64,000 nucleotides of DNA from Halorhabdus amylolytica (GCF_004944975.1 NZ_SPQG01000002.1:1-64000), one strand, 5' to 3'. Shown: positions 13,374 to 35,213, numbered from the stretch's first letter. Program-made: numbers and translations. The notes: generated from the letters alone by a model not told the origin.

Positions 13374-13453
13374 TCTAATATAGACTCTTCCTTCGCATGG
13401 AGATAATTTTCAGGGGCAATTTCTATTATAGGCCAGATTCAATATTGAGATAG

Positions 13454-15550
13454 ATGTCTCTGAGGGATTACCCGTGGGAGGGATACTATCCTGGGCACGT
13501 GGATATTTTGGAGGAGTTCTTTATTCCTGCGCTCAAGCACTCGACTTATTACGATCGGATAACCGGCAGCTTTTCGTCTTCTGTTTTGGAGCTGTTTTCT
13601 GAAGGACTGCCTGAATTCATCGAGAAAGGTGGGACAATTCGCCTTCTTCCTGGAGTTGTGCTTTACGAGGAAGATATTGAAGCGATTAATCAGGGTCACT
13701 CTGACGAGGTTTTGTCAAAACGGATTGAGTGGGAGAGGGTAAAGCAGGGGAGCCGTGAGGAGGTGATTGAGGCCTTGGCATGGTTAGTTGCCGAGGATAT
13801 TCTGCAAATCAAGGTTGGTGTGGTAACCGATGAATTGGGAAGGTTACAGACACAGCAAGAGGCAGAGTGGCATCAGAAGATTGCTATTTTCAGAGATGAC
13901 GAGGATAACGCGATCGGGATTACCGGATCGCCTAATGAGTCGTTCAAAGCGTTGCAGCAGAATCGAGAGAGCTTCAGCCTTTTCCGGAATTGGATGAAAT
14001 CTGAGGAAAATGAGTGGGATGAGAAAACCCGGCTGGATAAGCAGATAGATGAGTTTGAGCAGCTATGGAATGATGAGGATCCGGAGTCTGCTGTGTTCGA
14101 TTTTCCGGAGGCGCTTCGCAGGGATCTAATCGAGAAAGCCCCGGAGTCCGAGCCCGACTGGGATGAAGTTATTCTTGGCGGGAGTGACGGAGTAAGCGGC
14201 CGTGAGGATATTGAACTGCGGCCGTATCAAGAAGAGGCTATCCAGAGATTTCTTGATAACGGGAATCGACTTGTTCTTGATCACGCGACAGGCACAGGGA
14301 AAACCTGGACCTCGCTTTTGGCGATGCAGCACGCGGTTGAGGACTCCGATATTGTTGTTGTCTTTGCTCCGACGAAGGACTTGGTCAATCAGTGGGTAGA
14401 TGGTGACAATATCACGCGGTTCTTCCCGGAGAGCAGTATCGTCCGGTGTCTGGGAGATACGAATTGGCGTGAACGTTTGCAGAACTATCTCTTTACTGAG
14501 CGGTCGGATCCTCTGTTCGTGGTGTCAACAATGCATCCTAGCACGATGGAAGACGTCATCGAACGAGTGAATTCGAATAAGGAGTCGGGGATTGCAGTGA
14601 TTGCGGATGAGGTACACAACTTGGGTTCTAATCTCCGCCGAACTATCTTCCCGGATCTGGAAGCGGATCGAGCCAGAATCGCTTTGAGTGCTACGCCATT
14701 CCGTGACGATCCCGGCGATGAAGCTATTATCGAATATTTCGGGGACACTATCCACGAAATATCAATAGAAGATGCAATAGAAGAATACGAAGTGCTTAGC
14801 AAGTACGAATACCACATTCACCCGGTTGTCTTGTCGGACAGCGAACGGAAGCGGTTCCGTGATCATTCTACCGAGATTTCCCACCTGTATAATACGTACA
14901 AGTCCTATGAGGACCAGTCTCTAATTGAGGTATCAGATCGGCATCCGGATCTGAAGGTTGAGGTGATGGATCGAGCTCGGATTGTTAAGGAGTGTTCAGC
15001 TAAACTTGATGTTACGAGGTCGTTGATTGATGAAGCAGGAACACGGACCTTAGTTTACTGTAATACTGAAGAGCACACTGAACAGGTTGTCGAGGAAGTC
15101 GACGATCATACTACGAAGACCGTCTCGATATTCCTCGGTCGTCTCCCCTCCAGCGAAAAAGAGAATCTGTTAACTCATTTTGAGGGAGGGAAAATTGATG
15201 TCTTGGTTTCTATTGATTGCCTTACAGAGGGTATCGACGTACCTGAGTGTGACTCCGCTATCTTGGTAACAAGTTCTACCACGGAGCGAGAGGCCGTGCA
15301 GCGACGTGGCCGTATCTTGCGTGAAGCAGAAAGTGATGAACCGGCCCATCTCTATGACTTCGTCACTTTACCAGCTGATCTTAAGAAAATCAAAGCAGGG
15401 GAGGCTGATCTTGTCCCTGCTGAGATTTCGCTGATTAAGCGCGAACTGCAGCGTCTACGTATTATGAATGCCGATGCAGCGAATAAGATGGAGAATGATC
15501 CCCGTATTTTAAGATTAAGTCGTGCCATCACGCAGTACGATCTCGAATGA
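13454..15550 (+). CDS. Superfamily II helicase with N-terminal PLD-like domain
   Basis: This 698-residue protein has two parts. Residues 1-~190 resemble a phospholipase-D-type nuclease, with H140-x-K142 in EWHQKIAIF and GITGSPN following. Residues ~255-690 are a helicase: Walker A ATGTGKT near 278, a DEVH box (VIADEVHNLG) near 385, SATPFRDD (motif III), and CLTEGIDVPECD with QRRGRILR (motifs V and VI). This is the layout of type III-like restriction helicases, in which the motor feeds a nuclease. The last 4 bp overlap the next small gene, and the operon runs on through the SMC gene. It is likely the effector or translocase of the surrounding system; only one HxK was found, so the nuclease needs care. 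Confidence 0.85.
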   Translation: MSLRDYPWEGYYPGHVDILEEFFIPALKHSTYYDRITGSFSSSVLELFSEGLPEFIEKGGTIRLLPGVVLYEEDIEAINQGHSDEVLSKRIEWERVKQGSREEVIEALAWLVAEDILQIKVGVVTDELGRLQTQQEAEWHQKIAIFRDDEDNAIGITGSPNESFKALQQNRESFSLFRNWMKSEENEWDEKTRLDKQIDEFEQLWNDEDPESAVFDFPEALRRDLIEKAPESEPDWDEVILGGSDGVSGREDIELRPYQEEAIQRFLDNGNRLVLDHATGTGKTWTSLLAMQHAVEDSDIVVVFAPTKDLVNQWVDGDNITRFFPESSIVRCLGDTNWRERLQNYLFTERSDPLFVVSTMHPSTMEDVIERVNSNKESGIAVIADEVHNLGSNLRRTIFPDLEADRARIALSATPFRDDPGDEAIIEYFGDTIHEISIEDAIEEYEVLSKYEYHIHPVVLSDSERKRFRDHSTEISHLYNTYKSYEDQSLIEVSDRHPDLKVEVMDRARIVKECSAKLDVTRSLIDEAGTRTLVYCNTEEHTEQVVEEVDDHTTKTVSIFLGRLPSSEKENLLTHFEGGKIDVLVSIDCLTEGIDVPECDSAILVTSSTTEREAVQRRGRILREAESDEPAHLYDFVTLPADLKKIKAGEADLVPAEISLIKRELQRLRIMNADAANKMENDPRILRLSRAITQYDLE

Positions 15551-15729
15551 CAGGAATTGATCCGGACATCGAGGATATCCTAGATGAGGAAGTTAAGGAC
15601 TTCCACACAAAACAGATGTTACGGGAAATTCTCGACTGGGAGGATCAGCAACTCTACAAAACAAGACGTCGCGGAAAGAAAGACGCTCTTGAAGGGTTCT
15701 TAGATAACTACCTCGAAGATAAAAAATGA
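15547..15729 (+). CDS. 60-residue operon protein
   Basis: A short, highly charged helical protein (IEDILDEEVKDF, then a basic RRRGKK patch) without a motif I recognise. Its ATG overlaps the stop of the helicase gene (ATGA), and its stop overlaps the ATG of the SMC gene in the same way. The double coupling argues strongly that it is translated and belongs stoichiometrically with them. It is possibly a bridge between helicase and SMC protein. Confidence 0.7.
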   Translation: MTGIDPDIEDILDEEVKDFHTKQMLREILDWEDQQLYKTRRRGKKDALEGFLDNYLEDKK

Positions 15730-17672
15730 AACTACAATCTGTAGAGATAGTCAACTTCCGGCCATACCGGGATTCCCACTTGGACCTTACCGATCGCGAT
15801 GGTTCCATACACGTAGTAGAAGGTGATCAGGGAGGAGGAAAGACCAGTCTTCATACAGCGATCCAGTGGGGTCTATACGGTGGAGATGGACCCGGTACGA
15901 ATTATTCGGAGCACTGGAACGAACGTGCAAAGCAGGACCGAGAAGAGAAAATGTCGGTAGAAATTAAATTCAAAGAGGGGGAACGGAGCTATACTCTCAT
16001 CCGGGAAATTGACCGGTTCAACCATACACAAGGCCGTGCCTACGAAGAGACGACATTAATCGGAAATACCAATACCTATTCTGATGAAGAGGCTCAGAAC
16101 CAGATTGAAGAGATCCTACCTGAGCAGCTGAAGGAATTTTTCTTTTTAGACGGTGAACGGATCCAGAGGCTGATTGAGGAGGATGCCGGGCAGCAGGTGA
16201 AGCGTGAAATTGAGACCGTTCTCAAGCATCGAACAATAATCAATGCTCAAAACGATCTTGAGGATCTGTTAGAGGACCGGTTGATTCCTCGTCGAGATAA
16301 GATTGAGGAGGAAGCAAGTGAGCGCGACGAGATTGTGCAGGAGATATCGGAGTACCGCGATGATATCAAGGACCTGAAAGAGCAAAATGAGGATGATCGT
16401 GACAAGATTCAGGAAAAGAATAAGATACTGGAGGAGACACGTGAGGAGCTCGAAGAGCTAAATGAGGAGAAGATCGAGGAGATCAACGACTTGGAAGCGG
16501 AAATTCAGGTTCTTCAACAAGATAAGGTCAAGATCCTTTCTGAGTTGAACCAATCGTGGAAGGAACTTCGCTACGCTATTCTATTTGATGATGTAGCCGA
16601 TTTGAAGCAGGAGCTTAAGAGACAGATTAAGGAATACGATGAGCAGCTGTCGGAGATTGAGCGTAACCAGATTATCTATGAATTAACTGAGGAAGCCAGA
16701 GAGGGCGAGTGTCCAATCTGTGGGAATGATGATATTGAATATCTGAAGCAGCACGATCACGAGGACCACGATGAAAACTTGAAGGAGCAAATTACGGAAA
16801 GAATTGTTGAACTACGTGAGATGCGGGACAGACTTGATTCTGTTGAACCACCCGAAGATGCTCCCGGGGACAAGCAGGTCCGCCTTGAAGAAATCACGAG
16901 TAAGATCGAGGAAAAGCAGGATCGGCGTGATGAACTGTTAGATGAGTTAGGAGGTCTTCCGGAGGAAAGTGAGCGAGACACGTTGGAACAGAACATCAAG
17001 CAGCTTGAAAACGATATCAGAGATCTTCGTGAGGATATAGAGGATCGAGAAAAGAAGATTCAGAAAATACAGCAGGAGATCAAGAAGTTAGAGAATAAGC
17101 GGGAGGAGCGTTCCTCGAACAAGGATTTGGAAGAGGTTACTGACAAGATTGGGGCGGCCAAGACTGCTATTGAGAAACTGAAAACGATACGTGAGAAGCA
17201 TGTCCGAGAGAAACGGAAGAAGATCCGGGATGAGATGAATGAGGTGTTCGATCAGGTAGCGCAGTCTGAGTTTATGAACGAACGTTACAAGGGACTCGAT
17301 TTCCGGGGAACCCCGGATGAGGACGATTCTTATGTTCTCCAGCTAGTCGAAGTTGATGGCGAGACAAAAGATATGGTTAATCATCAGCCGTCGGCTGGTG
17401 AATCGCAGTTAACCGCTCTCAGCTTTATTTTCGGTCTCAATAAGTATGCGCGTTATTCTTCGACGGTCGTATTCGATACCGTTGCTGGACGGCTTGATTT
17501 GACCAACAGTGAAGCACAGGGAGAGTTCTTTGCGTCACTAGATGAGCCACTTCTGTTGCTCGTAACGGATTCGGAACTCCGTGATCTCGGTAAATCCGTT
17601 CAGCAGGAAATTGGTGCTCACTACGAAATCAAGCCTGAGGGAAAGGACTCAAAACTTAAAAAAGTGAAATGA
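15726..17672 (+). CDS. DndD-like SMC/RecF-type ATPase
   Basis: This 648-residue ABC-type ATPase has Walker A GDQGGGKTS at ~33-41 and a long coiled coil broken near residue 329 by a zinc-hook CPIC. The signature SAGESQLTAL and Walker B VVFDTVAGRLD are near the C-terminus. The FFFLDGERI segment at ~138 and the D-T (not D-E) Walker B with GRLD are typical of DndD, the ATPase of DNA phosphorothioation clusters. No dndB or dndC is visible, so a sulfur-modification role cannot be claimed. It more likely acts as a DNA-sensing or cutting ATPase with the PLD-helicase. It overlaps the genes on both sides by 4 bp. Confidence 0.8.
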   Translation: MKLQSVEIVNFRPYRDSHLDLTDRDGSIHVVEGDQGGGKTSLHTAIQWGLYGGDGPGTNYSEHWNERAKQDREEKMSVEIKFKEGERSYTLIREIDRFNHTQGRAYEETTLIGNTNTYSDEEAQNQIEEILPEQLKEFFFLDGERIQRLIEEDAGQQVKREIETVLKHRTIINAQNDLEDLLEDRLIPRRDKIEEEASERDEIVQEISEYRDDIKDLKEQNEDDRDKIQEKNKILEETREELEELNEEKIEEINDLEAEIQVLQQDKVKILSELNQSWKELRYAILFDDVADLKQELKRQIKEYDEQLSEIERNQIIYELTEEAREGECPICGNDDIEYLKQHDHEDHDENLKEQITERIVELREMRDRLDSVEPPEDAPGDKQVRLEEITSKIEEKQDRRDELLDELGGLPEESERDTLEQNIKQLENDIRDLREDIEDREKKIQKIQQEIKKLENKREERSSNKDLEEVTDKIGAAKTAIEKLKTIREKHVREKRKKIRDEMNEVFDQVAQSEFMNERYKGLDFRGTPDEDDSYVLQLVEVDGETKDMVNHQPSAGESQLTALSFIFGLNKYARYSSTVVFDTVAGRLDLTNSEAQGEFFASLDEPLLLLVTDSELRDLGKSVQQEIGAHYEIKPEGKDSKLKKVK

Positions 17673-18079
17673 TGAAATTCGACGAAATCTCCGGAGCTCA
17701 AACCGTTCACGTTACGACCGAGAAATTCGAGAAGGTAGCGACCTCGATCAATGAGACATTGAAGAACAACGACGGCAATCCGGTGGAAAACACTCAGATA
17801 GCGAATCTGGCGATTGCAGTTGGGTTCAAAGAAGAGCGGCGTGAAGAACCGGAAAGTACGAATAAGCCGATAAAAATGGAATCGCTAGATCAGGACAAGG
17901 TTCTCCGGACGATGATTGAGCGTCGACACGAGGATACCTCTCCAGAGGAATTGAAGGAGATTATGGAGCAATATCTGGAGGGGGGAATTCGAGAAATAGT
18001 CGAGGATATTGATGAACAGAACTACTTTGAATACCACCGATACCTCGATACTGACGTCGGAGCCCCCTCAGACGATTGA
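17669..18079 (+). CDS. Small DndE-like partner protein
   Basis: A 136-residue acidic protein whose ATG overlaps the stop of the DndD-like gene. The N-terminal half (VHVTTEKFEKVATSINETL, then NTQIANLAIAVGF) and the final YLEGGIREIVEDI resemble the layout of DndE. DndE is a small helical protein that binds nicked DNA and always accompanies DndD. The similarity is by pattern only. Position and size support a partner of the ATPase. It closes the operon that starts at 13454 or 10440. Confidence 0.6.
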   Translation: MMKFDEISGAQTVHVTTEKFEKVATSINETLKNNDGNPVENTQIANLAIAVGFKEERREEPESTNKPIKMESLDQDKVLRTMIERRHEDTSPEELKEIMEQYLEGGIREIVEDIDEQNYFEYHRYLDTDVGAPSDD

Positions 18080-21376: not shown

Positions 21377-22204
21377 TCAGCCTTCGTCAAACATGTAAGC
21401 GAACGCTTCGAGAGTGTTCTGGCCCTCCTCGGTCGCTTTGACGTATTTGTTCCGGCCTTTCTTGTACGTCTCCACGTACTCGTCCTCTCGAAGCGAGTTA
21501 AGCAAATGGGAATCAAGCAGACGGTACAAACCGCGTATATCGTCGTTTTCGTGCTCGGCAAGGGGGTCAATCCCTGCGGCGACAGCAAACTCGATACACT
21601 CTTGTTTCGTTACTGGGCCTTCGTTGATGATATACTGGAGAAGTCTGAGAGGGTCACGAGAAGGTGCTTGGATTGGGTATGTTGGGAGTCGAGATATGCT
21701 CGTCACATTTTTTGCCACTGGTACCTCTTTGTCTTGCCCGTATTCTGCAGCACTCACGTAGATGGGCTCGGCGCCGCCTGTGACCATACAAGCGATCATA
21801 CCCGCGATCGCAGTGACTTTTCCTCCCGACGCGAGATTGACGTAGACCTCGTGTTCCCGATTGCCTTGGATGAGTTCGGCAACTGTTCTTAGAGTATCAT
21901 ACATATCGAAGATGTTGCAGACATTGTTGTCATTAACATCAATTCCAGCTGTTCTTAAATCGTCGTGAATCTTTTCGTAGTACCCTGGTCGCTCATCGGG
22001 ATCGTCTCCTTCGTGGTAGATGAGATACACGCGGTCTGCACGCATCCGAATCGCTGGGACAGTAACTCGCTCGTACTCGTACCCCAGCGGGACGATATGG
22101 ATTCGGTCAGAGACACTTAGGCCCTCAAACGAGACTGATTCCTCGTCTGTATGCGTATTTTTACTCTCAGCTGAAGAGGGAGTTTTCCGCTCGTCGCTAC
22201 TCAT
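21377..22204 (-). CDS. CARF-HTH regulator (DUF6293/HFX_2341 type)
   Basis: This 275-residue protein has two parts. Residues ~33-165 form a Rossmann-like CARF domain: DRIHIVPLGYEYERV, RADRVYLIYHEG, and the ligand-loop signature VNLASGGKVTAIAG near 122-135. Residues ~185-270 are a winged HTH (LRLLQYIINEGPVTKQECIEF, YRLLDSHLLNSL). CARF-HTH proteins of the Csa3 type sense cyclic oligoadenylates and switch transcription. The haloarchaeal DUF6293 group shares the layout, but its ligand is unknown. No CRISPR locus is visible in the window, so a link to the nearby Argonaute pair or autoregulation is possible. Confidence 0.75.
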   Translation of the reverse strand: MSSDERKTPSSAESKNTHTDEESVSFEGLSVSDRIHIVPLGYEYERVTVPAIRMRADRVYLIYHEGDDPDERPGYYEKIHDDLRTAGIDVNDNNVCNIFDMYDTLRTVAELIQGNREHEVYVNLASGGKVTAIAGMIACMVTGGAEPIYVSAAEYGQDKEVPVAKNVTSISRLPTYPIQAPSRDPLRLLQYIINEGPVTKQECIEFAVAAGIDPLAEHENDDIRGLYRLLDSHLLNSLREDEYVETYKKGRNKYVKATEEGQNTLEAFAYMFDEG

Positions 22205-22338: not shown

Positions 22339-23334
22339 ATGCAAGGAAAGCAGGAAACGTTCGCTTCCTTCAGTTCCCCGCGGGTCGCAGCGGATGCTGC
22401 CTCGATAATTGGGATCATAGACTTCGTCTCCTGGTATAACGACGAACCCGCGCTCAAGTTCGCGCAACCGGGCGTACCGATACATCAGCGCCCAGACCTC
22501 CCACTATCCGAACTCGTGGGAACAGATGTTCGAGTGACAATCTCCGAAGACCAATACTGTACCCTCTGTGGCGAGTCAACCGAGACGTCCCCATGCCCAG
22601 ACTGTGCGGGAGAGCCCCCTCATACGACGTGCGTGATGCATCCTGCGACCCACTGCGAGTACAAGGCTTGTCCCTACCCTGACTACAAACAGCGGTCGTG
22701 TTCGCATACACATCTTGTCTATCTTGCGGCAACCAACCGGATCAAGGTCGGGATTAGTCGGGAGTCCCGGGCACGCTGCCGCTGGGCCGAACAGGGCGCC
22801 TCCCACGCGATTCCTATCGGCCGTGCTCCGAACCGGAAGGCAGCCGGGATTATTGAGAAGGCTATCGGTGAGGAATGGCCTCAGCGTCGTCGCCATGAGT
22901 GGTACCAGCCGATGGAGAACAGCATTGGACGACTTACAGACGACGCCCTCGCCACAGCGGCCCTGATCCCGGAAAAACTCAAGCACTGCTACTTCTGGGA
23001 CGATAGCGACCGACAGGACGTTCGCGACGCTGTCGTCGATGTTCCGTCTATCGAGGCACCGTCCCTCGACGAGCGCCTAACGACCAACCAATACTCGCTA
23101 TCCGCGGGCGAGTCACGAGAGGGCCGCGTACTCGGCGTTCGCGGCGGACTACTCGCAACGGACTCTTTCGTCGCTAATCTCAAGGGTCACAGTAGCCACG
23201 TGATCACGATCGAAACCGACGACCCGTTCTTCGAAGACACTGATCTACGCGTTCAGCAAAACGAAGAGGAACACTCCCAAGAACGTGAACAGCCGCCTGA
23301 GTACATCCCTGCCTCCAAGGGAGGTGTTGCATGA
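22339..23334 (+). CDS. DUF2797 zinc protein, Argonaute operon partner
   Basis: This 331-residue protein has a zinc ribbon with CTLC (~74-77) and CPDC (~86-89), then further Cys/His in a CVMHPATHCEYKACPYP segment. A GIY-YIG-like stretch (HLVYLAATNRIKVGISR, then RWAEQGA) starts near 126. This is the DUF2797 layout. The family is uncharacterised; a nucleic-acid-binding or nuclease role is plausible from the fold resemblance. Its TGA overlaps the ATG of the Argonaute gene (ATGA), so the two are translationally coupled. That is the best clue to its job: guide loading, target processing or control of Argonaute. Confidence 0.75.
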   Translation: MQGKQETFASFSSPRVAADAASIIGIIDFVSWYNDEPALKFAQPGVPIHQRPDLPLSELVGTDVRVTISEDQYCTLCGESTETSPCPDCAGEPPHTTCVMHPATHCEYKACPYPDYKQRSCSHTHLVYLAATNRIKVGISRESRARCRWAEQGASHAIPIGRAPNRKAAGIIEKAIGEEWPQRRRHEWYQPMENSIGRLTDDALATAALIPEKLKHCYFWDDSDRQDVRDAVVDVPSIEAPSLDERLTTNQYSLSAGESREGRVLGVRGGLLATDSFVANLKGHSSHVITIETDDPFFEDTDLRVQQNEEEHSQEREQPPEYIPASKGGVA

Positions 23335-25985
23335 CCGAGTTCTCTTACGACATCGTTGAAGACGAATACGGCGAAAAACTGGCTATCGAGTTCGAGTACG
23401 ACGAGGACGTCAAGAGCCGCCTAAAGGGGCTTTCATGGGATACCACTCATCGAGCCTGGAATCCTGACGCCGACGCGTGGACGATCGAGCTGACGCCGAT
23501 GAGTATCCAGGCGTTTGAAGAGGAGTTCGACTTGACCGTCCCGGACGAGTACAAGCCTGATAAGAGCGCTGGTGATGACGGCGGGGAAACTGACTCAGAG
23601 GCTGAGTCGGGGACGAACGACTTCCAAACGGCAACTGAGCAGAGTAGCACTATCACCAGCGAGAGTACAGGATCGGACTACGACGAAGATGCGGCGATCG
23701 AAGACGCCCTCGTTGACACGCGCGACATTTCGGCTAGCGGCCATGGATTAACCACGTATCCGGCAGCTCAGCGGATCAACGACGTCCCGGTTTACGTCTA
23801 TAACGTTCTCATCTCGACGGGGGACCAGGCACAGTCTACTGCCGAGCGCCGCCAGCGAGCGTACACGGCGATGCGCGAAATCCGTGAGGAGTACAGGGAC
23901 CGGGCACCACCAATGGCGTACGCTGGCGACCTCGAAGTTGTAGCTCTCCATCCGATTCCTGGCGACGGCGATCTCGAAAGCGAGGGTATTCGAGGACTCA
24001 AGGAGGCAGGAGAGCGCACGCTCGAACTATCGAACCAGGCCGAAAGAGCGCAAATCCAGCGCCTCGTGGAAGAAGCATTCAAACAGCGCGTCGCCGACCA
24101 GAATTTCATCGTCCACGGGATGCACAAGATCCTGGAGAGCGACCCCATCCCGATCCACGCTGGAACCGGGAACTTCCGCCTGCACGAGCGCTTCGACTGC
24201 GCCATCTCCGTCGCATCGTCCGGACGGGTCTACCTCCACGTGAACCCCAAGACACGCGTCCAGACCAACTATACGCTTGATAAAGTCGAGAACCATCGAC
24301 TGTACCCAGGGATTCGACTGGTCACGACCTACAACGGCCGTGGGTATCGACTTGGTCGCATCCTGTCTGAGCGGGCTCGCGATCCGACTATTGACGCCGA
24401 GACGAGTGTCGTCGATTACCACCGAGAGGACAACCCACTTATCGACGACAAAAAGGTCGAACAAATCGACAGCGCGAACCGTCGAGTTGTGACAGCATAC
24501 CCCATGGGTTCAGGTGGAAAACAGACGTTCCCACAAGAGCTACTGGCTCTTCAGGGACACACTGAGAACCTTGCGAACTTCGATGGCGACTTTTGGGCGG
24601 AGGCACAGCCGAAAATGCGCCGCTCGGCGTCCGCTCGCGTTGAGGACGCCGTCGAGTTCGCGCGACAAGTCGGTGATGTCCCCTTCGACGGGACTACGCT
24701 TTCCTTCCCTGCTGACGCACCGCTGTTCGCTGGCGACTCCCACTTCCGAGTTGAACGGCTATACGAGACTGACGCCGAGGTTCTCAAGTTCGCGAACGGT
24801 CGCCTCGGTTCTCACCCAAAGGACGTCGGCCAGAAAGGCATCTACGAACCCCCAGCGTCGTTCAACGTTCTCTACGTCTACCCGCAGCAGTTGGAGGGTG
24901 ACCAAGCCGATTCGTTCTGGGACACGTTCTCCCGGAAGCTCAGATCCATGGGGGCCGAGCCGGACAGCCGGTCAGATGTCACGTTCGAACCAACGCCGAA
25001 AAGCGAAGGGCCTGGTGACGTCGACATCCAAGTAGGCCGCCAGGTCCCGAGCGACCACGACTACGATGCCGCGTTGGTAGTCCTCCCTCCAGAGGAGGGT
25101 GCGCTGACTTCGTTTTATCAGCCTTACGACGAACTCAAAGAGGTCCTCGCCGGGAAGGGACTTCACTCCCAGATGATCGACCGAAAATCGATGAAGGAGA
25201 CTGGTTACCATCAGAATATTGCCCTCGGACTGATTAGCGCAGCCGGAGGGATTCCGTTCACTGTAGAAGGCTCGCTACCGGGCGATTCCGATCTCTATCT
25301 CGCGTTCGACGTCGGCCAGTATTTCGACGCCAATGACGATGGGCGCCAGGACGGCATTCGCGTCGGCGCGTCCGTGACTGCGATCACGAACGAGGGAGCG
25401 GTTCTTGGTTACGCACACACAGGGCCACAGGCAGGCGAACAAATCCCAGCATCGGCTCTCCGCCGGATCGCTAGACAGTCGCTGTTAGGGTACGAAGAGC
25501 GCCGCGGCGACGCCCCCGACCATATCGTCATCCATCGTGACGGCTTCATGAACGATCCGATCGAGCCGGCCCTCGAGTTCCTCGACGAGCGCGGTATCTC
25601 CTACGACGTCGTCGAAGTGCGCAAGCAGGCGCCTGCCCGAGTCGTCAATCAGGAGAGCGGATTCGCGAACCCCGACAAAGCGATTGCCTGCATCAACGAC
25701 GAGCAACACCTGGCATATATCGCGACGTATGGCCAACCCGAGCCACTCGCTAAAGGAACGACTGGCACGCCGCGACCGATCACGGTCGAGCGTAAGCACG
25801 GGGGGACCGATATCGAGACGCTCACGCGGCAGGTCTATCTCTTGGCACAGTGCCATATCGGTGTCGCGAATACAACGACCCGGCTGCCGATTACGACGGC
25901 CTACGCAGACCAAGCGGCGACCGCGGCGGCGAAAGAGCACCTCCCAATGACGTCCGACCTAGAGACCGGAATCGGCTTCCTCTAG
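23331..25985 (+). CDS. Long prokaryotic Argonaute (NgAgo-related)
   Basis: This 884-residue protein matches the NgAgo lineage of haloarchaeal Argonautes across PAZ-like, MID and PIWI regions. The PIWI domain (~650-884) holds a complete DEDD tetrad: D660 (LAFDVG), E703 (AGEQIP), D737 (IHRDGFMN) and D860 (TTAYADQA), ending IGFL. The MID region includes SQMIDRKSMKETGYHQNIA and AAGGIPF. Nuclease activity is therefore predicted. The first ~70 residues (YDEDVKSRLKGLSWD, then AWTIELTPMSIQAFEEEF) resemble a HARP-like DNA-binding domain rather than the OB-like domain at the NgAgo N-terminus. An acidic linker (~75-125) follows. It is coupled to the DUF2797 gene and likely defends against plasmids or viruses by guide-directed DNA cleavage. 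Confidence 0.9.
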   Translation: MTEFSYDIVEDEYGEKLAIEFEYDEDVKSRLKGLSWDTTHRAWNPDADAWTIELTPMSIQAFEEEFDLTVPDEYKPDKSAGDDGGETDSEAESGTNDFQTATEQSSTITSESTGSDYDEDAAIEDALVDTRDISASGHGLTTYPAAQRINDVPVYVYNVLISTGDQAQSTAERRQRAYTAMREIREEYRDRAPPMAYAGDLEVVALHPIPGDGDLESEGIRGLKEAGERTLELSNQAERAQIQRLVEEAFKQRVADQNFIVHGMHKILESDPIPIHAGTGNFRLHERFDCAISVASSGRVYLHVNPKTRVQTNYTLDKVENHRLYPGIRLVTTYNGRGYRLGRILSERARDPTIDAETSVVDYHREDNPLIDDKKVEQIDSANRRVVTAYPMGSGGKQTFPQELLALQGHTENLANFDGDFWAEAQPKMRRSASARVEDAVEFARQVGDVPFDGTTLSFPADAPLFAGDSHFRVERLYETDAEVLKFANGRLGSHPKDVGQKGIYEPPASFNVLYVYPQQLEGDQADSFWDTFSRKLRSMGAEPDSRSDVTFEPTPKSEGPGDVDIQVGRQVPSDHDYDAALVVLPPEEGALTSFYQPYDELKEVLAGKGLHSQMIDRKSMKETGYHQNIALGLISAAGGIPFTVEGSLPGDSDLYLAFDVGQYFDANDDGRQDGIRVGASVTAITNEGAVLGYAHTGPQAGEQIPASALRRIARQSLLGYEERRGDAPDHIVIHRDGFMNDPIEPALEFLDERGISYDVVEVRKQAPARVVNQESGFANPDKAIACINDEQHLAYIATYGQPEPLAKGTTGTPRPITVERKHGGTDIETLTRQVYLLAQCHIGVANTTTRLPITTAYADQAATAAAKEHLPMTSDLETGIGFL

Positions 25986-26583: not shown

Positions 26584-28503
26584 TTATACTAGAGTGAGGA
26601 CTTGGTCAATGATTTCGTCTATCTTCGGTACTGATCGGTCATCCTCTTTTGCAGTCTCGAATAAACTAGACATGACTGTCGGATTCTTTGCTCCCCGAAT
26701 TTGTTTATGGTATCCGTATTTGTCACAGGCGTCCCGAAGTGCGTCATCATAGAATTCAGGTCCAAGAGAGGTTCGAATACATTCGGTTAGATTCTCTTGG
26801 AAACAAGCGTGCCGATCATAGACTCCTGAAGGCCAGTCTTCTTCTTCTCCCGCGTCAACAAGGCGAAGTAACCGCTTATTGATGTCTGTCTCTGATTCAT
26901 CATCGTGGTCTGAGTCAAACATTACGTAGACAGATCTCCCTAATTGTTCGAAAATTATCGCGGGACGGCCGATTTTAGTTTTCCCATTACAGGGAAGGAC
27001 TGCAACACCCTGGGAGCTAAGATCGATATCTCTAGCACTCGCCCGTCCTAGAAGAGCAGACCGGTCTTCAAGCCCTTCAACCAATACAACCACATCCGAG
27101 AAAAACCCCTCATTAACCCAGGGAGTCATCACTGGTTCCAAACGAGCACGTGTTGATTCGCCGGTGAATGTTCCTTCATCTGCGTCAAAAACAGCTTCCA
27201 TCTGTCGAGCGACGGTCTCTAATGAGCTCTGTTTGACTTGGGTTTGCTTGGGAAGATCTTCTGCAGCTTCTATCTTCGATAAGCTGCGTATGTCGTCAAA
27301 TCGTTTCATACTCACCATCAGGGGGGAGTGTGTTGAATATACGACCTGAACGCTACTAGCTGTGCCTGCTATCCCCTGATCATCAAATGAAGATAGAATG
27401 GACATGAGATGGCGCTGGCGATTCGGGTGTTGGTATAGTTCAGGCTCTTCGATACCCAGGATAAGGCTCGGATCGTAGTCGCCTTCATCTTCATCGGGAG
27501 AGTTCATGTCTTCGCTATGGACTGCCAAGTTTTGTAAAAGAGAGATGATGAATGCCCGCTGGGAGCCATGGCCTGCATGTTCCACTTCCGAGACAAAATC
27601 GTCTACTTCCAACTTGATATCTGCCTGAGGCATCTGGATATCGATGACATTCTCCGTATCCCAGGAAAGATCTACACCAACGCCGGGTGCAAACGTTTCG
27701 AGCGTAGATGAGAGGTCGGATTCTAATTGACTGAGCTCTGCTTCTGATGCATCTTCGATTAGCTCTGCATAACGACGTTGAGCGGCCCGTTGAAATTCTT
27801 CCAGTTCATCCCGTTCCGAGAGTGCTGCACGGACGACTAAGTCCATTAGTTCTGTTAGAGGGCTCCCTCGTTTATCATCGGCGTCCTCACTTGCATCACG
27901 GACTGCGGGAATCAAGATGTATCGTGTAAATTCCTCAAGAGCGGCTTGACCAACCGAATTAAATCCAAAGAATTGGCCGTCATCCCGTCTACGCTCACAC
28001 CGGCTGGGGTGTTCTTCTTCCCACTCTCGCAAGACCGACTCTGCTTCTTCCTGGTTTTGATACTCCGGCAACTCACTGTAGCCATTGTCAAATAGATCCT
28101 CATATTCCCGGCGAAGATTGTGACCACTTGCATTACGGAATCCATCGAAATCAGGATTATACAAGCGGTTCCCGTGGTATCTTTGGTTGCCACGGTTATC
28201 TGGATACTCCATTACTTTCTCTACGGTTAATGTTTCACCACCAGTGTATGGGCTGAATTTTTCTTTAGCGTCTTCACCCAAATTTGTGAATTCTACTTGG
28301 ACACTGATTTCTTCGTTAGTGTTGCGATTGTAGAAGTCTTCCTCGGAGTACGAGGTGTTCGCTGTATAAAAGAGATCTAATGCTTTAAGGAACGAAGATT
28401 TTCCAGCGCCGTTTGATCCTATCAGGGCAGTTAGCTCATTAAATTCGATCTGTGCATCTCGAAGACTCCGAAAATTTTGGACACGGACTGAATTGATGCG
28501 CAT
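26584..28503 (-). CDS. OLD-family ATP-dependent nuclease
   Basis: This 639-residue protein has an N-terminal ABC ATPase with Walker A GSNGAGKSS (~29-37), a signature-like HGSQRAFIISLL and Walker B LILGIEEPELYQHP. A C-terminal TOPRIM nuclease follows, with VVLVEGLEDRSALL, the conserved Glu, and VYVMFDSDHDDE, the DxD pair. This is the OLD (overcoming lysogenization defect) architecture, as in phage P2 Old and the GajA subunit of Gabija. No UvrD-like partner gene is visible, so it is not a standard Gabija pair. It overlaps the stop of the upstream KTSC gene by one base (TAATG). It is likely a defence nuclease. Confidence 0.85.
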   Translation of the reverse strand: MRINSVRVQNFRSLRDAQIEFNELTALIGSNGAGKSSFLKALDLFYTANTSYSEEDFYNRNTNEEISVQVEFTNLGEDAKEKFSPYTGGETLTVEKVMEYPDNRGNQRYHGNRLYNPDFDGFRNASGHNLRREYEDLFDNGYSELPEYQNQEEAESVLREWEEEHPSRCERRRDDGQFFGFNSVGQAALEEFTRYILIPAVRDASEDADDKRGSPLTELMDLVVRAALSERDELEEFQRAAQRRYAELIEDASEAELSQLESDLSSTLETFAPGVGVDLSWDTENVIDIQMPQADIKLEVDDFVSEVEHAGHGSQRAFIISLLQNLAVHSEDMNSPDEDEGDYDPSLILGIEEPELYQHPNRQRHLMSILSSFDDQGIAGTASSVQVVYSTHSPLMVSMKRFDDIRSLSKIEAAEDLPKQTQVKQSSLETVARQMEAVFDADEGTFTGESTRARLEPVMTPWVNEGFFSDVVVLVEGLEDRSALLGRASARDIDLSSQGVAVLPCNGKTKIGRPAIIFEQLGRSVYVMFDSDHDDESETDINKRLLRLVDAGEEEDWPSGVYDRHACFQENLTECIRTSLGPEFYDDALRDACDKYGYHKQIRGAKNPTVMSSLFETAKEDDRSVPKIDEIIDQVLTLV

Positions 28504-28777: not shown

Positions 28778-30658
28778 TCAGTTACTGTGTTGAGTAAGGC
28801 AGTAACGGAGCCCCTTGACTTCAACAGCCTCAACGTCGGGAGCCTTGATGACTGCTTGACCTTTACCGTATGTTTGGAGGTCCTGTTCGAAGCCACGGGG
28901 GACGGAAGGGACTTTATTGATGACTTCTTCGCGGAGCCCGAGGAAGATATTCGTATTAGTCTGTTTGAGGATGTCGCCGTCGATGTCTTCGGGATTCTGT
29001 GTGATCATGAAGAGACCCAACTTGTCCTTACGGCCCTGCTTGACGGCGTCACGGGCACGGTTGACGATATATTGCTCCCGAAGGGTGCCGGGGTCAGAGA
29101 CGTAATTATGAGCTTCGTCAACGGCGACGAGGAGTGGCGTGTCCTTGACGTTGGGATCGACGTTGTAGTCGTCGATCTTGTTGTCGATAATATACGAGAG
29201 GATAGAGAGGACGGTGAGTTCCTCTTTCGCGCCGTGGAGGTGGCTGGTTGGGATAACTGTGGCTTGGCCTTCGCGGAAGACGGCGTTTGACACGTCGGGA
29301 AGAGGATTCGTGCCGTGATCGAAGACGTCGCTGTATGCGGCGTCGGTGACGCGACGCATGATCGCGCCCCACGTACCGTCTTCGATATTGTACCCATCGC
29401 GGAGCGGGCTCTCTGAGTCCTCATTATTACGGAGAAACTGGAGGAACTTGTTGTACTTCGGGTCATCTGCATCGGAGAAGTACGCGTCAATACAGTTTTC
29501 GAGAGCACCACGAGTGACTTCCGTTGGTTGGTACGGCATGAGGAGCTGTGGGCGGTCCTCGACGAGGGAGAACGGAATCGTCAGGTTTCGGCTTTCACCA
29601 GTTGTCGGAGCGTTCGTGTTTCCGATATCTGGAATGAACGTCTCGAAGTTATCGATGCCGCCGACCTCGATGCCGTCTCGTTCGAGCCGACGCACGAGTT
29701 CGTCCTTGTCTCGGAGTTCGGGGTTGCCGTTCCGCATTTCGGAGTACTCGTTTTCGGGATCGAGGATGATGAGGTTGAGGCGGCTGTGTTCGGTTTCACC
29801 AGTCTGGTGGTTCTCAATCGGATACCGCTTGTCCGTGGCCAGCTGTCGGAGCAAGTTTTTCGTGAAGTGCGTCTTGCCTTTCCCGGTGGACCCAGCGACG
29901 AGGGTGTGCCGGAAGATTGCAGGTTCGCCAGACTCAACGTCTCCGCTTACCGGGTCGACACCGGGGTTGCTGATAAAGTACGGGAGCGGATCGCCATCGA
30001 CAGTCATGCGGTCGCCGCCGACAGAGAGGTAGCCGGCGAAGACACCGTCTTGTGGGATATTGAGGCCGGTACGAAGGTACTCCTTATTGAGGGAGAACGC
30101 GACGGGCGTGTTGGGTTTCGGGATCTTGTTGACGATGCCGCGTTCGAGTCCATCATCAGTCGGCGAGATGATGGCGATTGGTTCGAGTTCGGCGACGAGG
30201 ACGAACTCCGTCTCGTCGAGGGCGTGTGCTGACGCGATCCGATTGTGAGTGTCGGATTTGTCGTCGAGTTCCGTGTAGGGTTCGTATCGGAGCCCATCGA
30301 CGACGGCGAACAGTTCATCGGCCTGCTCGCTGGGATCCGATCCCGGATAGGGGACTTGAACATAGTCGCCGACGCGGACACCGTCCCGGCAATCAGTTTT
30401 CACGAACGCGTTGACGGTATACTCACTGCGCGTGACATGGATTTCTTCGCTGGCAACGACGTGTCCGAGTTCGTTCTCATCAGCGTCAGTCAACGAATTC
30501 GGAACTGTCGTTTCCGGGACGGTGGTCTGATCGTCCGTCTCCGTGCCTGTTGTGTCCGTGTCTTCTCCGGTGGGTTCATCGGTACCGGTGTCGGCACTCG
30601 TCGATTCGTCGTTACTGACGGGATCGCGGTCGAGGATGTCGTCGGTGCTGTCGCTCAT
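28778..30658 (-). CDS. herA: HerA DNA translocase
   Basis: This 626-residue protein has an acidic disordered N-terminus (1-~75), then a HAS-barrel-like region. The FtsK/HerA motor has Walker A AGSTGKGKTH at ~255-264, Walker B LLVAVDEAHNYV near 510 and an arginine-finger region MITQNPEDIDGDIL. HerA forms a hexamer that drives DNA through the NurA nuclease during end resection. Its start overlaps the stop of nurA (TAATG). It is the last gene of the mre11-rad50-nurA-herA operon. The unusually long acidic leader sets it apart from the ~500-residue HerA of thermophiles. Confidence 0.85.
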   Translation of the reverse strand: MSDSTDDILDRDPVSNDESTSADTGTDEPTGEDTDTTGTETDDQTTVPETTVPNSLTDADENELGHVVASEEIHVTRSEYTVNAFVKTDCRDGVRVGDYVQVPYPGSDPSEQADELFAVVDGLRYEPYTELDDKSDTHNRIASAHALDETEFVLVAELEPIAIISPTDDGLERGIVNKIPKPNTPVAFSLNKEYLRTGLNIPQDGVFAGYLSVGGDRMTVDGDPLPYFISNPGVDPVSGDVESGEPAIFRHTLVAGSTGKGKTHFTKNLLRQLATDKRYPIENHQTGETEHSRLNLIILDPENEYSEMRNGNPELRDKDELVRRLERDGIEVGGIDNFETFIPDIGNTNAPTTGESRNLTIPFSLVEDRPQLLMPYQPTEVTRGALENCIDAYFSDADDPKYNKFLQFLRNNEDSESPLRDGYNIEDGTWGAIMRRVTDAAYSDVFDHGTNPLPDVSNAVFREGQATVIPTSHLHGAKEELTVLSILSYIIDNKIDDYNVDPNVKDTPLLVAVDEAHNYVSDPGTLREQYIVNRARDAVKQGRKDKLGLFMITQNPEDIDGDILKQTNTNIFLGLREEVINKVPSVPRGFEQDLQTYGKGQAVIKAPDVEAVEVKGLRYCLTQHSN

Positions 30659-31944
30659 TATTGGAGTTGGGTGTCGGGTGCTTGTTCGATGTCGTTCCAG
30701 CGGCCGTCCCAGTTGTAGTCGTGGGCGTAGTCGGCGGCAGTGAGGAAGTCCCGGATCGTGTCACGGTTGTCGCGGCTGATCCGGGCGATCCGATCCGCTC
30801 GCCCGACGGCCCGTGGGACGTCTTGTGTCTGGGCGATTTCTTTCAGGGCTTTGTACTGGATTTGGTCTCGGGTCTGCTCATCGTCGATCATGAGCTGGGG
30901 TGTTTCCACGCGAAGGACGTCGCCGGTTTTCGGAAGGCGAACGTAGAAGAAGGCCCGCCGGTAGTCGGCCGGATCTCCGTGGGACAAGTCCGCGCTGTAC
31001 GGATCCAAGAGCTCGAACGATTGTCCATCGACCGGGGCTTGCTTGTGGACGAACCAGGACGTGTACGTAAGGTGTTCGAGGCTGTCGTCCCGAAGCACTT
31101 CAGCGATAAACTGGTGGTCGCGCGTCCAGGGAACGTCGGGCCGGCCGCCGTGGTCGCTTGTCACGTGATTCTCAGCGAGCTTCGCATCTAAGGCATCGAG
31201 AAGTTGACTGATGGTGGAGGTCTTCACAACTCCAATGACCGGATATCCTCGTTCATACTGGGTGTCGATAACGTCGATATAATTCCGGATGATCTCATCG
31301 GGCTTGTCCCATGCGCCGGCGGGCGTGGTACGGCCGACTTTATCGAGCAGAACCCAGTAGAGGACACCAAGCGGGTAGACTGCGCCGTCGATGAACAGGA
31401 GCCCGTCGAGCGCGTCAACGTGGGCGGCGACGTGGGAACTCTCTGCAAGGCCTTGCGCGGCGCTAGCAACCGATTTCGAAAGGGTTGCCGAGCGGTCAGT
31501 CGGTGGGAACTGGACGACTTCGCCGGTGACGTGATCAGCCTCGAACTGTTCGGCATGGAGTGTACTTTGGCTGTCTGCGAGGTATACAACCGTTTCTACC
31601 GTGCCAGCCTCCTCGATCCGCTTGTCGGTGTCAGCCCCGGCGACGCCGAGTTTGGCGTACGCGGTATCGACGATAAGCCCGTTGTTGAACTCTAATGGGC
31701 GTGTAGTACTGGCGTCGAGTCCGTAGGTTGGTGTTCCCCACGGATCACCGGTCCACGTGCCGAGTTCGTCGATCCGTGTCTTCTGGTAGGCGGGTTCGCC
31801 GAGAGCAGTGACCCGTCCGCCGTCTCGTGAGAGGTGCTCGAAGAGTCGGCGAGCGTAGTTGGCCTGCGGAGTGACATCGCGCGGGATGTTCGTATCGATA
31901 TGGTCGAAGATGTCCTCGACGATGCTGAGTGCGTTCGTGTCCAT
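30658..31944 (-). CDS. nurA: NurA nuclease
   Basis: A 428-residue protein with TYGLDAST near 73-80 and LLFIDGAVYPLG near 185. These are the two Asp-bearing motifs of the NurA RNase H-like nuclease fold. A third conserved region, QFIAEVLRDDSLEHLTYTSWF, lies near 270. NurA is the 5'-3' nuclease that works inside the HerA ring. Its ATG overlaps the stop of rad50 by one base, and its stop overlaps the herA start, so all are co-translated. Confidence 0.8.
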   Translation of the reverse strand: MDTNALSIVEDIFDHIDTNIPRDVTPQANYARRLFEHLSRDGGRVTALGEPAYQKTRIDELGTWTGDPWGTPTYGLDASTTRPLEFNNGLIVDTAYAKLGVAGADTDKRIEEAGTVETVVYLADSQSTLHAEQFEADHVTGEVVQFPPTDRSATLSKSVASAAQGLAESSHVAAHVDALDGLLFIDGAVYPLGVLYWVLLDKVGRTTPAGAWDKPDEIIRNYIDVIDTQYERGYPVIGVVKTSTISQLLDALDAKLAENHVTSDHGGRPDVPWTRDHQFIAEVLRDDSLEHLTYTSWFVHKQAPVDGQSFELLDPYSADLSHGDPADYRRAFFYVRLPKTGDVLRVETPQLMIDDEQTRDQIQYKALKEIAQTQDVPRAVGRADRIARISRDNRDTIRDFLTAADYAHDYNWDGRWNDIEQAPDTQLQ

Positions 31945-34900
31945 CAGTCAGCCCCTGCAGTCCGCATCGTGATCTGGCTCGTATTATCCGACTCGTCGAT
32001 CGTCACGTGACAATCGTGGTCCGCTCCGTCGATGAGAGTTTCATCGTGGGAGACGACGATGATCTGTGGGACATCCCACTCCTTGATGGTCGCCAGCATC
32101 TGCTCCAGTTGCCCGACGTGCCCTTCATCGAGGAAAGTCGTCGGCTCATCAAGGATGAACGGCGGGAGTTGCCCGCGATTACCGCCGTGCAGTTCGGCGA
32201 TGAGTTTGTAGATTCCAGCCCGTAACGCGAGGTTCACGATAGCGCGCTCGCCACCGCTCGCATTGCTCGGGTCTTCAGTCGTCCCGTCATCACGGAGAAG
32301 CCGAATATCATACTCGTAACTTTCTCGCCGGTCGTCGTACGTTTCTTCGATGAGAACCTGCTGGTAGCTACTGTTCTTGTATATCTCTTTGAAGATGTCG
32401 TTCGTGTACTCGTTGATGTAGGCGAGGTATTGTTCCCGGAGATCGGATTTCGTGCTTTCGTAGACCGAGATGACAGCGTCGAGTTCATCGTGGACTTCCT
32501 TTGCCCACTGTTCTTTGTCTTCGTATAGGTCGATTCGTGCTTGCGTCTCACGCAGCGATTCGAGTTCTGTTTCGAGGCGTGTGCGCTCGTCACGGATTTC
32601 CTGCAGTTCGGCCTGGTACTCATCACGCGTCTCTTGGCGCTGCTCGATCCGAGCGTTGACACGCTCTAAGTCCTCACGTAAGCCTTCGACATCCTCGTCG
32701 CCGAGTTGGTCCTCGATATCTTCCTTCTCGTCTCGAAGCTGAGCGAGCCGGCCGTTAAGGTCGTCAATCCGATCACGAGCGTTCTGGATAGTTTGTTGCT
32801 CCTGCTCGATGGTCGTCTGGCGTTCGTTGATGGTCTCATATTTCGAGACTGCATCTTCGATGGTGTCCTGGACCGTTTCGACTTCTTCGACGCGGTCCTC
32901 AGCTGCTTCGAGCGCGGCCTCACAGTCGTCAACGACAGCCTCCTGATCGTTGATAGCGTCCTCCAGATTCCCGATTTCCTCTTCAATATCCGCAAGATCC
33001 GCCGTGACGGCCTCGATGTCTGCCTCGATATCGGCGATCTCGTCCTCGAAGTCGGCCACTGTTTCTTTTTGGTTGGCTACCTGCTCGAACGCGTCCAAGA
33101 TGTCTTCGCCCGTGTCAATTGCTTCGTTTATCTCGTCGATCTCGTCGGTAAGCGCGGCCTCGCGGTCCGCTAGCTCGTCGATCTCCGTCTCTAGATCGGC
33201 GATCGTTGACTCATAGTCTTCGGTAGTGTCCTCCAGTTCCGCAATACGGGACTGCAATTCGTCTTCCTTCTCGCAAAGCGATTCTACCTCTTCGCGTACC
33301 GCTGTCAGGGTCTCATCGCGGAAGGTTATCGTGTCGAGAAGATCCGCACGGAACGCTTGCAACTCGTCTTTCCGTGACTGGAGTTCTTCTTCAGTCTCTT
33401 GGGCGTCTTCAATCGACTCTTTTGCATCGGCGATCGCAGCTTCCAGCTCTTCGACTTCCTCTTCGATATGCGCGTCTTTGACATCTTGGCCACACTTCGG
33501 ACACTTGTCCTGCTCACCGAGTTCCTTGATCTCTGCGAGTTCTTCTTCGTAGCGCTGCTTGTCGTTGCGATGTTCAGTGATGGCGTTCCCGATGTCGTTC
33601 AGATCCGCGTTAGTCTCCTCGATGAGGTCCGGGACCACCGTATCACGAAGTTCGTCTAAGTTCTCGGCTGTGACCGCGACGTCGAAGTCAGAAGCCTGGT
33701 CCGTGAGCGTCTCGACCCGTTCTTCGAACTCTGCTTCGGCGGCCGTGAGATTATCTTTAGCAGTCGCCAGATCGGACTGCACCGTTTCGAGGTCGGCTTC
33801 TGTGTCCGCTAGGTCGTCATTTGCCGTCTCCAGTTCCTCACGGGCTGTTTCGAGGTCATCTTCAGCTCGGTCGTGCTTCGTCGTGACTTCCCGCTTCGTC
33901 GCAGTCACGTCTTCTCGTTCGTCGCGGAGGTCTGCAAGCCGCGCCTCGACTGCCTCTTCGTGGTCATCCGTGACCTCTTCAGCATCAGCAACCGCGGGAA
34001 GGAACCCGACCGCACTCTCGTTCCGCTCAGTCGTTAGCGATTCGCGTTCTGCTTCCGCTTCAGTGAGGCGGTCAGTAGCGTCTTCGAGGTCGGACTGGAG
34101 GTCATCACATTCCTCATTGAGTTCCTCTCGTTCGGTCTCGGCCTCAGAGAGATCATCTTCGAGACGGTCCAATTCTTTTTGGGCGTTCTGAAGGTCGTTT
34201 TCGCAATCGTTGCGTTCCGTTGTCGCCTCCATAACGGCTTCCTGCACGGCCTCGTTCGCGTCTGCGGCGCTCTCTGCAGAAGTCAAGTCATATTCGACCT
34301 CTGAATCGAGGGTTTCGATGTCACTTTCGAGCGTGTCGATCTCGTCTTGTGCCTCCTCGATGGTGGCCTCACTTTCATCGATAATCGACTGTTGGTCGGC
34401 CCGCTTCGCTTGAACCTCCTCGATCTGCTCCTGTTTCTCCGTCTTGCGCTCCTGCAGGTCTTCGTAGTCCTCGATATCGCTCTCGATGCTGGTTTGGTGG
34501 TCTTTGAGTTCGTCAATGAAGGACTCGATATCTTCGATATCTGCTTCAAGATCGGCAATATCGTCAGTGAGGGAGTGGATCTCGTCCTCATGCTCAGCTT
34601 CTGTTTTCTCGATGTTGTCAAGGTCCTCCTCGTAGTTCTCTCGACTCGTTTTGTTCCGTTCTTGAACTCGACCGGCACCGCGACGTGCGAGTTTCATCCG
34701 TTCGATGTGCTCGTCGAGTTCGTCTAATCCGAGGAGACTGTCGATCATCTCAGCACGATCACCAGCCTCAATGAGACGGTCGATTTCACCCTGCTTGACG
34801 TAGACAGAACTGGAGAAGTCCTCTTCGTCCATGCCGAGTAGGCCGATCACCTCTTCCCGGACGTCCGTAATACCGGTTACTGGGTCCGAAAACGACTCTG

Positions 34901-35213
34901 AATCCAGTGTCGCACTATTTTGGGAACCTGTCGTGTGCAACTCCCAGGTCACGGTGAATTCCGATCCATCGATTTCGAAGACCAGCTTTACGGTCCCTTT
35001 ATCTTCACCACGCCGTACCAGATCATCCAGATTGAAGTCGTTCGTTCCGACGTTCCGGATCTTCGATAGGAACAGCCCGCCGAAGATCCCCATCAGAAGA
35101 GAGGTTTTCCCAGCACCATTGTCACCCCGGATCAGAATCGTCCCATCCGGAAACTCGACAGTCTGGTCCTCGTAGCTCCGGATATTCTGCAGTGTGAGCG
35201 CTTTGATCTTCAT
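31944..35213 (-). CDS. rad50: Rad50-like SMC ATPase, long coiled coil
   Basis: This 1089-residue protein has an N-terminal Walker A RGDNGAGKTSLL (~29-40), a long coiled coil with a zinc hook CPKC near residue 567, and at the C-terminus the signature ASGGERAIVNLALR and Walker B PPFILDEPTTFLDEGH. This is a full Rad50, about 200 residues longer than the ~890 I recall for chromosomal haloarchaeal Rad50 because of a longer coil. With Mre11 it tethers and processes DNA ends. It overlaps mre11 by 4 bp and nurA by 3 bp or less. The extra length and linkage to nurA-herA suggest an accessory rather than the housekeeping copy. Confidence 0.85.
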   Translation of the reverse strand: MKIKALTLQNIRSYEDQTVEFPDGTILIRGDNGAGKTSLLMGIFGGLFLSKIRNVGTNDFNLDDLVRRGEDKGTVKLVFEIDGSEFTVTWELHTTGSQNSATLDSESFSDPVTGITDVREEVIGLLGMDEEDFSSSVYVKQGEIDRLIEAGDRAEMIDSLLGLDELDEHIERMKLARRGAGRVQERNKTSRENYEEDLDNIEKTEAEHEDEIHSLTDDIADLEADIEDIESFIDELKDHQTSIESDIEDYEDLQERKTEKQEQIEEVQAKRADQQSIIDESEATIEEAQDEIDTLESDIETLDSEVEYDLTSAESAADANEAVQEAVMEATTERNDCENDLQNAQKELDRLEDDLSEAETEREELNEECDDLQSDLEDATDRLTEAEAERESLTTERNESAVGFLPAVADAEEVTDDHEEAVEARLADLRDEREDVTATKREVTTKHDRAEDDLETAREELETANDDLADTEADLETVQSDLATAKDNLTAAEAEFEERVETLTDQASDFDVAVTAENLDELRDTVVPDLIEETNADLNDIGNAITEHRNDKQRYEEELAEIKELGEQDKCPKCGQDVKDAHIEEEVEELEAAIADAKESIEDAQETEEELQSRKDELQAFRADLLDTITFRDETLTAVREEVESLCEKEDELQSRIAELEDTTEDYESTIADLETEIDELADREAALTDEIDEINEAIDTGEDILDAFEQVANQKETVADFEDEIADIEADIEAVTADLADIEEEIGNLEDAINDQEAVVDDCEAALEAAEDRVEEVETVQDTIEDAVSKYETINERQTTIEQEQQTIQNARDRIDDLNGRLAQLRDEKEDIEDQLGDEDVEGLREDLERVNARIEQRQETRDEYQAELQEIRDERTRLETELESLRETQARIDLYEDKEQWAKEVHDELDAVISVYESTKSDLREQYLAYINEYTNDIFKEIYKNSSYQQVLIEETYDDRRESYEYDIRLLRDDGTTEDPSNASGGERAIVNLALRAGIYKLIAELHGGNRGQLPPFILDEPTTFLDEGHVGQLEQMLATIKEWDVPQIIVVSHDETLIDGADHDCHVTIDESDNTSQITMRTAGAD

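Follow-up and report, generated by a model that had tools for sequence, protein, structure and literature searches.

To our knowledge, how long prokaryotic Argonautes (pAgos) acquire their guides is largely unresolved, and NgAgo of Natronobacterium gregoryi has been controversial since 2016. Here, we analyze a 64,000-nucleotide stretch of Halorhabdus amylolytica DNA (GCF_004944975.1 NZ_SPQG01000002.1:1-64000; the window, for short), in which a gene of the DUF2797 family directly precedes, and overlaps, the gene for a long Argonaute (ago). This arrangement recurs throughout one clade of haloarchaeal Argonautes, and the sequence comparisons make it very likely that DUF2797 is a dedicated functional partner of Argonaute. 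Such a conserved partner is apparently undescribed so far. The published NgAgo work that we found in the open-licence literature deals with the Argonaute alone, without DUF2797, and no description of a DUF2797-Argonaute pairing was found there; the two papers in it that mention DUF2797 do not deal with Argonaute. The texts of a survey of pAgo genomic contexts (PMC6299218) and of the paper on the APAP system (PMC11442185) do not mention DUF2797.

Comparison with NgAgo and APAP

At one NgAgo-type locus (L046), the Argonaute has 887 amino acids (aa), is 95% identical to that of Natrinema ejinorense (L076), and carries R40, D663 and D738, the residues named for NgAgo (PMC9040764). By this length and these residues it is very probably NgAgo itself, which would then belong to the same clade and have a DUF2797 gene 43 bp upstream. 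Like the window Argonaute, with which it shares 35% identity along its length, the L046 protein is encoded just downstream of DUF2797. NgAgo-type loci differ from the window in that the two genes do not overlap but are separated by 43 bp, and in having DISARM genes alongside; the first ~95 aa of the window Argonaute are different as well.

The other system that invites comparison is APAP, in which a haloarchaeal long-A pAgo is accompanied by the PLD protein AgaP, a protein that by itself is toxic and that holds plasmids in check (PMC11442185). Like the pair described here, APAP joins a catalytically complete long Argonaute to a dedicated gene next to it, and HerA-NurA is sometimes in the vicinity. 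However, AgaP is encoded either upstream or downstream, at gaps of 31-64 bp, whereas DUF2797 is always upstream and often overlaps ago by 4 bp, and the Argonaute clade is a different one (26-31% identity to other haloarchaeal Argonautes). No PLD gene with the HxK and GSxN motifs of AgaP lies next to the window ago, and the window pair is not an APAP system. Within the clade, an AgaP-like gene accompanies DUF2797 only at L044; their coexistence there implies that DUF2797 is not a simple replacement of the PLD effector.

Conservation and co-evolution of the DUF2797-ago pair

The DUF2797 gene of the window (22339-23334, plus strand) encodes a 331-aa protein that belongs to the family by profile search: residues 61-289 match all of Pfam model PF10977 (positions 1-227 of 227) at 107.4 bits and E=1.2e-30, where a full-model match and a gathering cut-off of 25 bits were required. 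The original prediction, that this gene overlaps ago by the 4 bp ATGA, proved exact in its coordinates as well. The DUF2797 open reading frame (ORF) ends in ...AAGGGAGGTGTTGCATGA, and ATGA is common to both ORFs, ago running from 23331 to 25985 on the plus strand and encoding 884 aa. A Shine-Dalgarno-like site, GGAGGTG, lies within the 3′ end of DUF2797, just ahead of the Argonaute ATG, such that the junction with its stop/start overlap occupies 23315-23334 (plus strand).

On its length and its catalytic residues, the window Argonaute is classified as long-A. It matches Pfam Piwi (39.6 bits) and, over residues 120-884, nearly the whole PADLOC pAgo profile PDLC02391 (1160 bits; positions 2-742 of 742), as expected of a full-length Argonaute (N, PAZ, MID and PIWI), and its relatives in the PDB are CbAgo (6qzk, E=7.7e-37), CpAgo and TtAgo. 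The DEDD tetrad D660/E703/D737/D860 is intact, aligns to the catalytic positions of CbAgo and CpAgo, and is invariant in 12 clade members. A short or long-B system, with an inactive Argonaute and an effector nuclease, is rejected on account of this tetrad. The N-terminal ~95 aa have no Pfam match. As a separate observation, the first ~80 aa (23331-23580), a segment confined to subclade A, share ~45% identity with the N-terminal end of a UvsW/Pbe-like helicase from another genome (G236, L054:6786-8579); the N-terminus of the other clade Argonautes is different, and probably OB-type. These sequences point to swapping of the fifth Argonaute domain.

We searched 391 haloarchaeal genomes separately with Argonaute and with the DUF2797 family. 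DUF2797 is a near-universal single-copy gene (384 of the 391 genomes), and a second copy is present in exactly 15. The same 15 genomes make up the close Argonaute clade, defined by a best Argonaute match with E below 1e-130, and in every one of them the second DUF2797 gene immediately precedes ago and is read from the same strand. The 41 other Argonaute-positive genomes, whose matches are mostly 26-31% identical, with a few mere fragments, have one DUF2797 copy each. Were the species independent, such a complete overlap would have a probability of 1/C(391,15), or about 2e-27. Since they are not, it is better to say that about five deep lineages maintain the link, with DUF2797 proteins 33-44% identical.

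Further instances came from other searches. A scan of named genomes found the pair at seven loci (L071-L077), in a Natrialbaceae metagenome-assembled genome, Halobellus inordinatus, Halorubrum sp. Hd13, Halopiger djelfimassiliensis, Halopenitus persicus, Natrinema ejinorense and Natrinema hispanicum (L077), and found no DUF2797 gene inside the retrieved flanks of 31 other ago loci (L079-L109; L078, on an incomplete contig, was left out of this count). A profile of Ago-type DUF2797 used alone, in a second survey that served as a prospective test, brought up one new genome (G417), and the Argonaute gene predicted there was indeed present immediately downstream. On a plasmid of Halocatena salina, the public record shows both genes adjacent and surrounded by non-defence genes. 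Two scans of viral contigs found no DUF2797-ago pair. The original prediction had made DUF2797 a new Argonaute accessory factor provided that the pairing was conserved, and would have given the idea up had the pairing been found only here. DUF2797 is a recurrent neighbor of NgAgo-type Argonautes (all 15 clade members of the class-wide sample, G417, L077 and the NgAgo-like locus), which supports that conditional claim; a chance or merely local pairing is ruled out by the class- and order-wide surveys. Apart from these intact pairs, three genomes (G121, G255 and G320; L050-L052) contain short, window-type ago remnants, 81-86% identical and without DUF2797, which are decayed copies of the same system.

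The two genes have also evolved together. An ATGA or ATGACTGA overlap (the latter in one case) and a GGAGG-like site are retained in most clade members, even between pairs whose DUF2797 proteins are no more than 33-44% identical. The DUF2797 and Argonaute protein trees have 11 of 13 splits in common, and the pairwise distances correlate at r=0.96, a value reached in 0 of 2000 permutations. Both genes are under purifying selection, with ratios of non-synonymous to synonymous substitution (dN/dS) of 0.05-0.16. Flanking genes vary between lineages while the pair persists, and the locus comparisons indicate joint horizontal transfer of the two genes. In G003 and G065 (L045 and L049), which belong to different families, an 11.6-kb stretch containing the pair is 100% identical, reflecting either recent transfer or contamination.

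What DUF2797 may contribute

For the family as a whole, we compared 42 sequences (16 Ago-linked, 23 housekeeping haloarchaeal and 3 bacterial). The Ago-linked proteins are monophyletic (99/99) and fall towards the bacterial sequences in the tree, apart from the host's own gene. Their profile reaches 112-127 bits against bacterial copies but no more than 45 against the housekeeping ones. These scores and the separate tree position rule out a recent duplication of the host gene. Both kinds of haloarchaeal DUF2797 belong to the same Pfam family and have the same core residues; the Ago-linked kind is distinguished by its own clade and by a bacterial-type C74/C77/C86/C89 cluster. This cluster is part of a Cys-rich, predicted zinc-binding region (residues 74-123; 22558-22707, plus strand), in which C74, C77, C86, C89, C98, C106, C111, C121 and H123 are invariant in 16/16 Ago-linked copies. 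Positions 77, 89, 98, 106, 111 and 121 are Cys in all 42 proteins, and the Ago-linked copies also retain C74 and C86, as bacterial copies do, plus H123, H156 and W188.

Next comes a GIY-YIG-like core (residues 125-189; 22711-22905, plus strand), marked by V127-Y128, K136-x-G138-I139, R148, Q152-G153-A154, E173 and W188. Residues Y128, K136, G138, R148, Q152-G153-A154, E173 and G269 are invariant in 42/42 proteins, and among them Y128, K136, R148 and E173 reproduce the catalytic order of GIY-YIG enzymes (Tyr, Tyr/Lys, Arg, Glu). AlphaFold models, with a mean predicted local distance difference test score of 74 for the whole protein and 82 for residues 108-222, give the topology strand 125-131, strand 135-141, helix 142-151, strand 156-163, helix 166-177. 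Y128 thereby lies on the first strand, K136 and G138 on the second, R148 in the helix that follows and E173 in the final one, an order and placement that a GIY-YIG domain would be expected to show. Lys-variant GIY-YIG nucleases such as R.Hpy188I, which has Lys at the position of the YIG tyrosine (PMC2630997), and T5orf172 proteins such as Odn, an active nuclease that requires its catalytic Glu (PMC8263062), share with DUF2797 the pattern Y...K-[IV]-G...R...E and the strand-strand-helix-strand-helix core. They differ from it in that the DUF2797 core is flanked by the Cys-rich region and a C-terminal beta-rich domain, and no significant match in sequence or structure connects the two. Thus, of the zinc ribbon and GIY-YIG-like stretch originally predicted, the Cys pattern and a GIY-YIG-type core are indeed conserved, and the GIY-YIG-like stretch is plausible from its motif order and fold topology, though short of statistical significance. 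On the models and residues together, the core probably has a GIY-YIG fold; whether the protein is also a catalytically active nuclease of this type seems to us, from the sequences, an evenly balanced question.

We envisage a two-gene defence module in which DUF2797 is a dedicated subunit of Argonaute, an explanation that, taken whole, we hold with middling confidence. Translation of a DUF2797 paralogue distinct from the housekeeping copy would be coupled to that of an NgAgo-type Argonaute with its catalytic residues complete, and the two proteins would bind each other, their complex being assembled as they are translated. Less certainly, the zinc-binding region and GIY-YIG-like domain might bind and nick nucleic acid, either in producing, trimming or loading guides or in processing a captured target; DUF2797 might nick invader DNA for the Argonaute, or trim its guides. 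Argonaute would then cut the invading DNA or RNA. We tentatively favor a role on the guide or substrate side over that of a killer effector, for three reasons: as a universal housekeeping family, DUF2797 is unlikely to be very toxic; the Argonaute can cut by itself; and L044 has a PLD effector as well. It is possible, though doubtful, that NgAgo-type Argonautes find their missing nuclease partner in DUF2797, which as a GIY-YIG enzyme of the Lys variant would make or trim guides; it would then be the first guide-biogenesis factor dedicated to long pAgos, and a possible reason for the conflicting results with NgAgo alone.

Several observations weigh against the module as proposed. NgAgo expressed alone in E. 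coli is reported to linearise plasmid and to protect against T7 (PMC9040764), which implies that some activity there does not strictly depend on DUF2797. The putative catalytic residues are conserved in housekeeping DUF2797 too, and are hence not specific to a role with Argonaute. The ago gene is frameshifted or interrupted in three clade members, in all of which DUF2797 is intact: the same frameshift splits ago in G003 and G065, the latter ago being interrupted by a UPF0236/Mutator-type insertion sequence as well, and the ago of L048 differs from that of L043 by a frameshift of one base. DUF2797 may keep some function alone, or the decay of ago may just be recent. Finally, comparisons with known nucleases are statistically weak. 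Sequence searches found no solved structural relative of DUF2797, and a whole-chain fold search of the PDB gave no significant match. For the subdomain, the best PDB neighbor is 1zg2, at a non-significant E=2.5 and TM score of 0.38; it is a protein of UPF0213, a GIY-YIG family. Several neighbors among the viral proteins of BFVD have GIY-YIG or T5orf172 names, at E values of 0.2-2 and none below 0.001. Alignment by hhalign to a haloarchaeal T5orf172 profile brings KVGI/KIGI, IIE/VE and HEWY/GEWF into register with E=0.023, at a probability of 2%.

It is also conceivable that DUF2797 is a partner without catalytic activity, a zinc-dependent subunit for nucleic-acid binding or folding that stabilizes Argonaute or presents guide or target strands, its GIY-YIG-like domain binding without cutting. 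The nine invariant Cys/His residues go beyond the needs of a catalytic domain alone, the coupling signals suit co-translational assembly, and the structural similarity to nucleases is not significant, as noted. In addition, the YIG tyrosine, the general base proposed in UvrC (discussed in PMC2630997), is replaced by Lys in all members. However, Lys-variant enzymes do exist (R.Hpy188I and T5orf172 proteins), and Y128, R148 and E173, at positions expected for catalysis, are invariant throughout the family. We regard this alternative as possible but rather unlikely.

A role downstream of Argonaute, where DUF2797 would be set free by target recognition to act as a nuclease against the DNA of invader or host, appears improbable; such action has been proposed for AgaP/PLD and for the nucleases of inactive Argonautes. 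Effector nucleases are frequent in Argonaute systems, AgaP being the toxic example, and DUF2797 sits in the equivalent adjacent position; but strong toxicity would fit poorly with a family present in nearly all haloarchaea, the partner Argonaute is catalytically complete, and AgaP and DUF2797 occur together at L044. That DUF2797 is a mere hitch-hiker in a mobile defence island, with no role for Argonaute, we consider very improbable, since, although the window is a defence island of low GC content that holds many unrelated systems, the co-occurrence is perfect, orientation and overlap are fixed, the trees mirror each other, and the pair has moved jointly among changing flanks and stands isolated in H. 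salina.

Genomic surroundings and significance

In the window, a gene for an HFX_2341/CARF-winged-helix regulator (21377-22204, minus strand; PF19810 at 138.6 bits, PF22665) is divergent from DUF2797, an arrangement seen in three of the four closest loci, and is possibly the regulator of the pair; genes of this type flank the pair in the window, L036 and L037. Over-expression of HFX_2341 represses cas genes (PMC11434293). Beyond ago lies a non-core gene for an OLD-family ATPase-TOPRIM nuclease (26584-28503, minus strand; AAA_15 at 152 bits, OLD-like_TOPRIM at 49 bits), whose cluster (c20) neighbors the pair in the window, L045 and L049. The HerA-like ATPase and NurA nuclease genes that follow (28778-31944, minus strand; DUF87, HerA_C and NurA matches) belong to clusters c6/c7, recurrent but inconstant neighbors in six clade loci and one other ago locus.

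Elsewhere in the clade, the flanks comprise NurA-HerA in L043, L044 and L048 (with the AgaP-like PLD gene in L044), OLD, HerA and NurA in L045 and L049, and DISARM (DrmE, C5 methylase) in L046 and L047. Loci L039-L042, with which L155 groups, have a uniform operon encoding MarR-AAA, a 239-aa protein with no Pfam match, DUF2797, Argonaute, a YprB-like RNase H-HhH exonuclease and an MrfA-like helicase, with Mre11-Rad50 divergent. In the window itself, HerA, NurA, Rad50/SMC-like and Mre11-like genes form one minus-strand run beside Argonaute (28778-36421), and similar resection genes recur at other clade loci. Such recurrent, changing neighbors (HerA-NurA, Mre11-Rad50, MrfA-like helicase) would be in keeping with a system whose substrates are DNA ends or single strands.

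The left part of the window (1-37000) has a GC content of ~50%, versus ~64% in 38000-64000, with tRNA-Met and tRNA-Asn at the border, and is an integrated defence island containing many unrelated systems. At 8601-18079, genes for PbeA (775 bits) and a PbeC/DndD-like protein (562 bits), which are normally associated with DNA phosphorothioation, adjoin two N6/N4 DNA methylases, one of them fused to a GHKL ATPase. No DndCDE genes were seen among the annotated ORFs nearby, and base methylation is possibly what this Pbe system reads.

A partner gene that is obligately linked to NgAgo-type Argonautes, and co-evolves with them, offers a concrete and cheap hypothesis; work on this Argonaute may so far always have lacked its natural partner. 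The DUF2797-ago mechanism is directly testable. If DUF2797 does act as a Lys-variant GIY-YIG guide maker, this could account for the conflicting results obtained with NgAgo alone. The pairing would also provide a first functional setting for DUF2797, an undescribed family found in nearly every haloarchaeon and in many bacteria.

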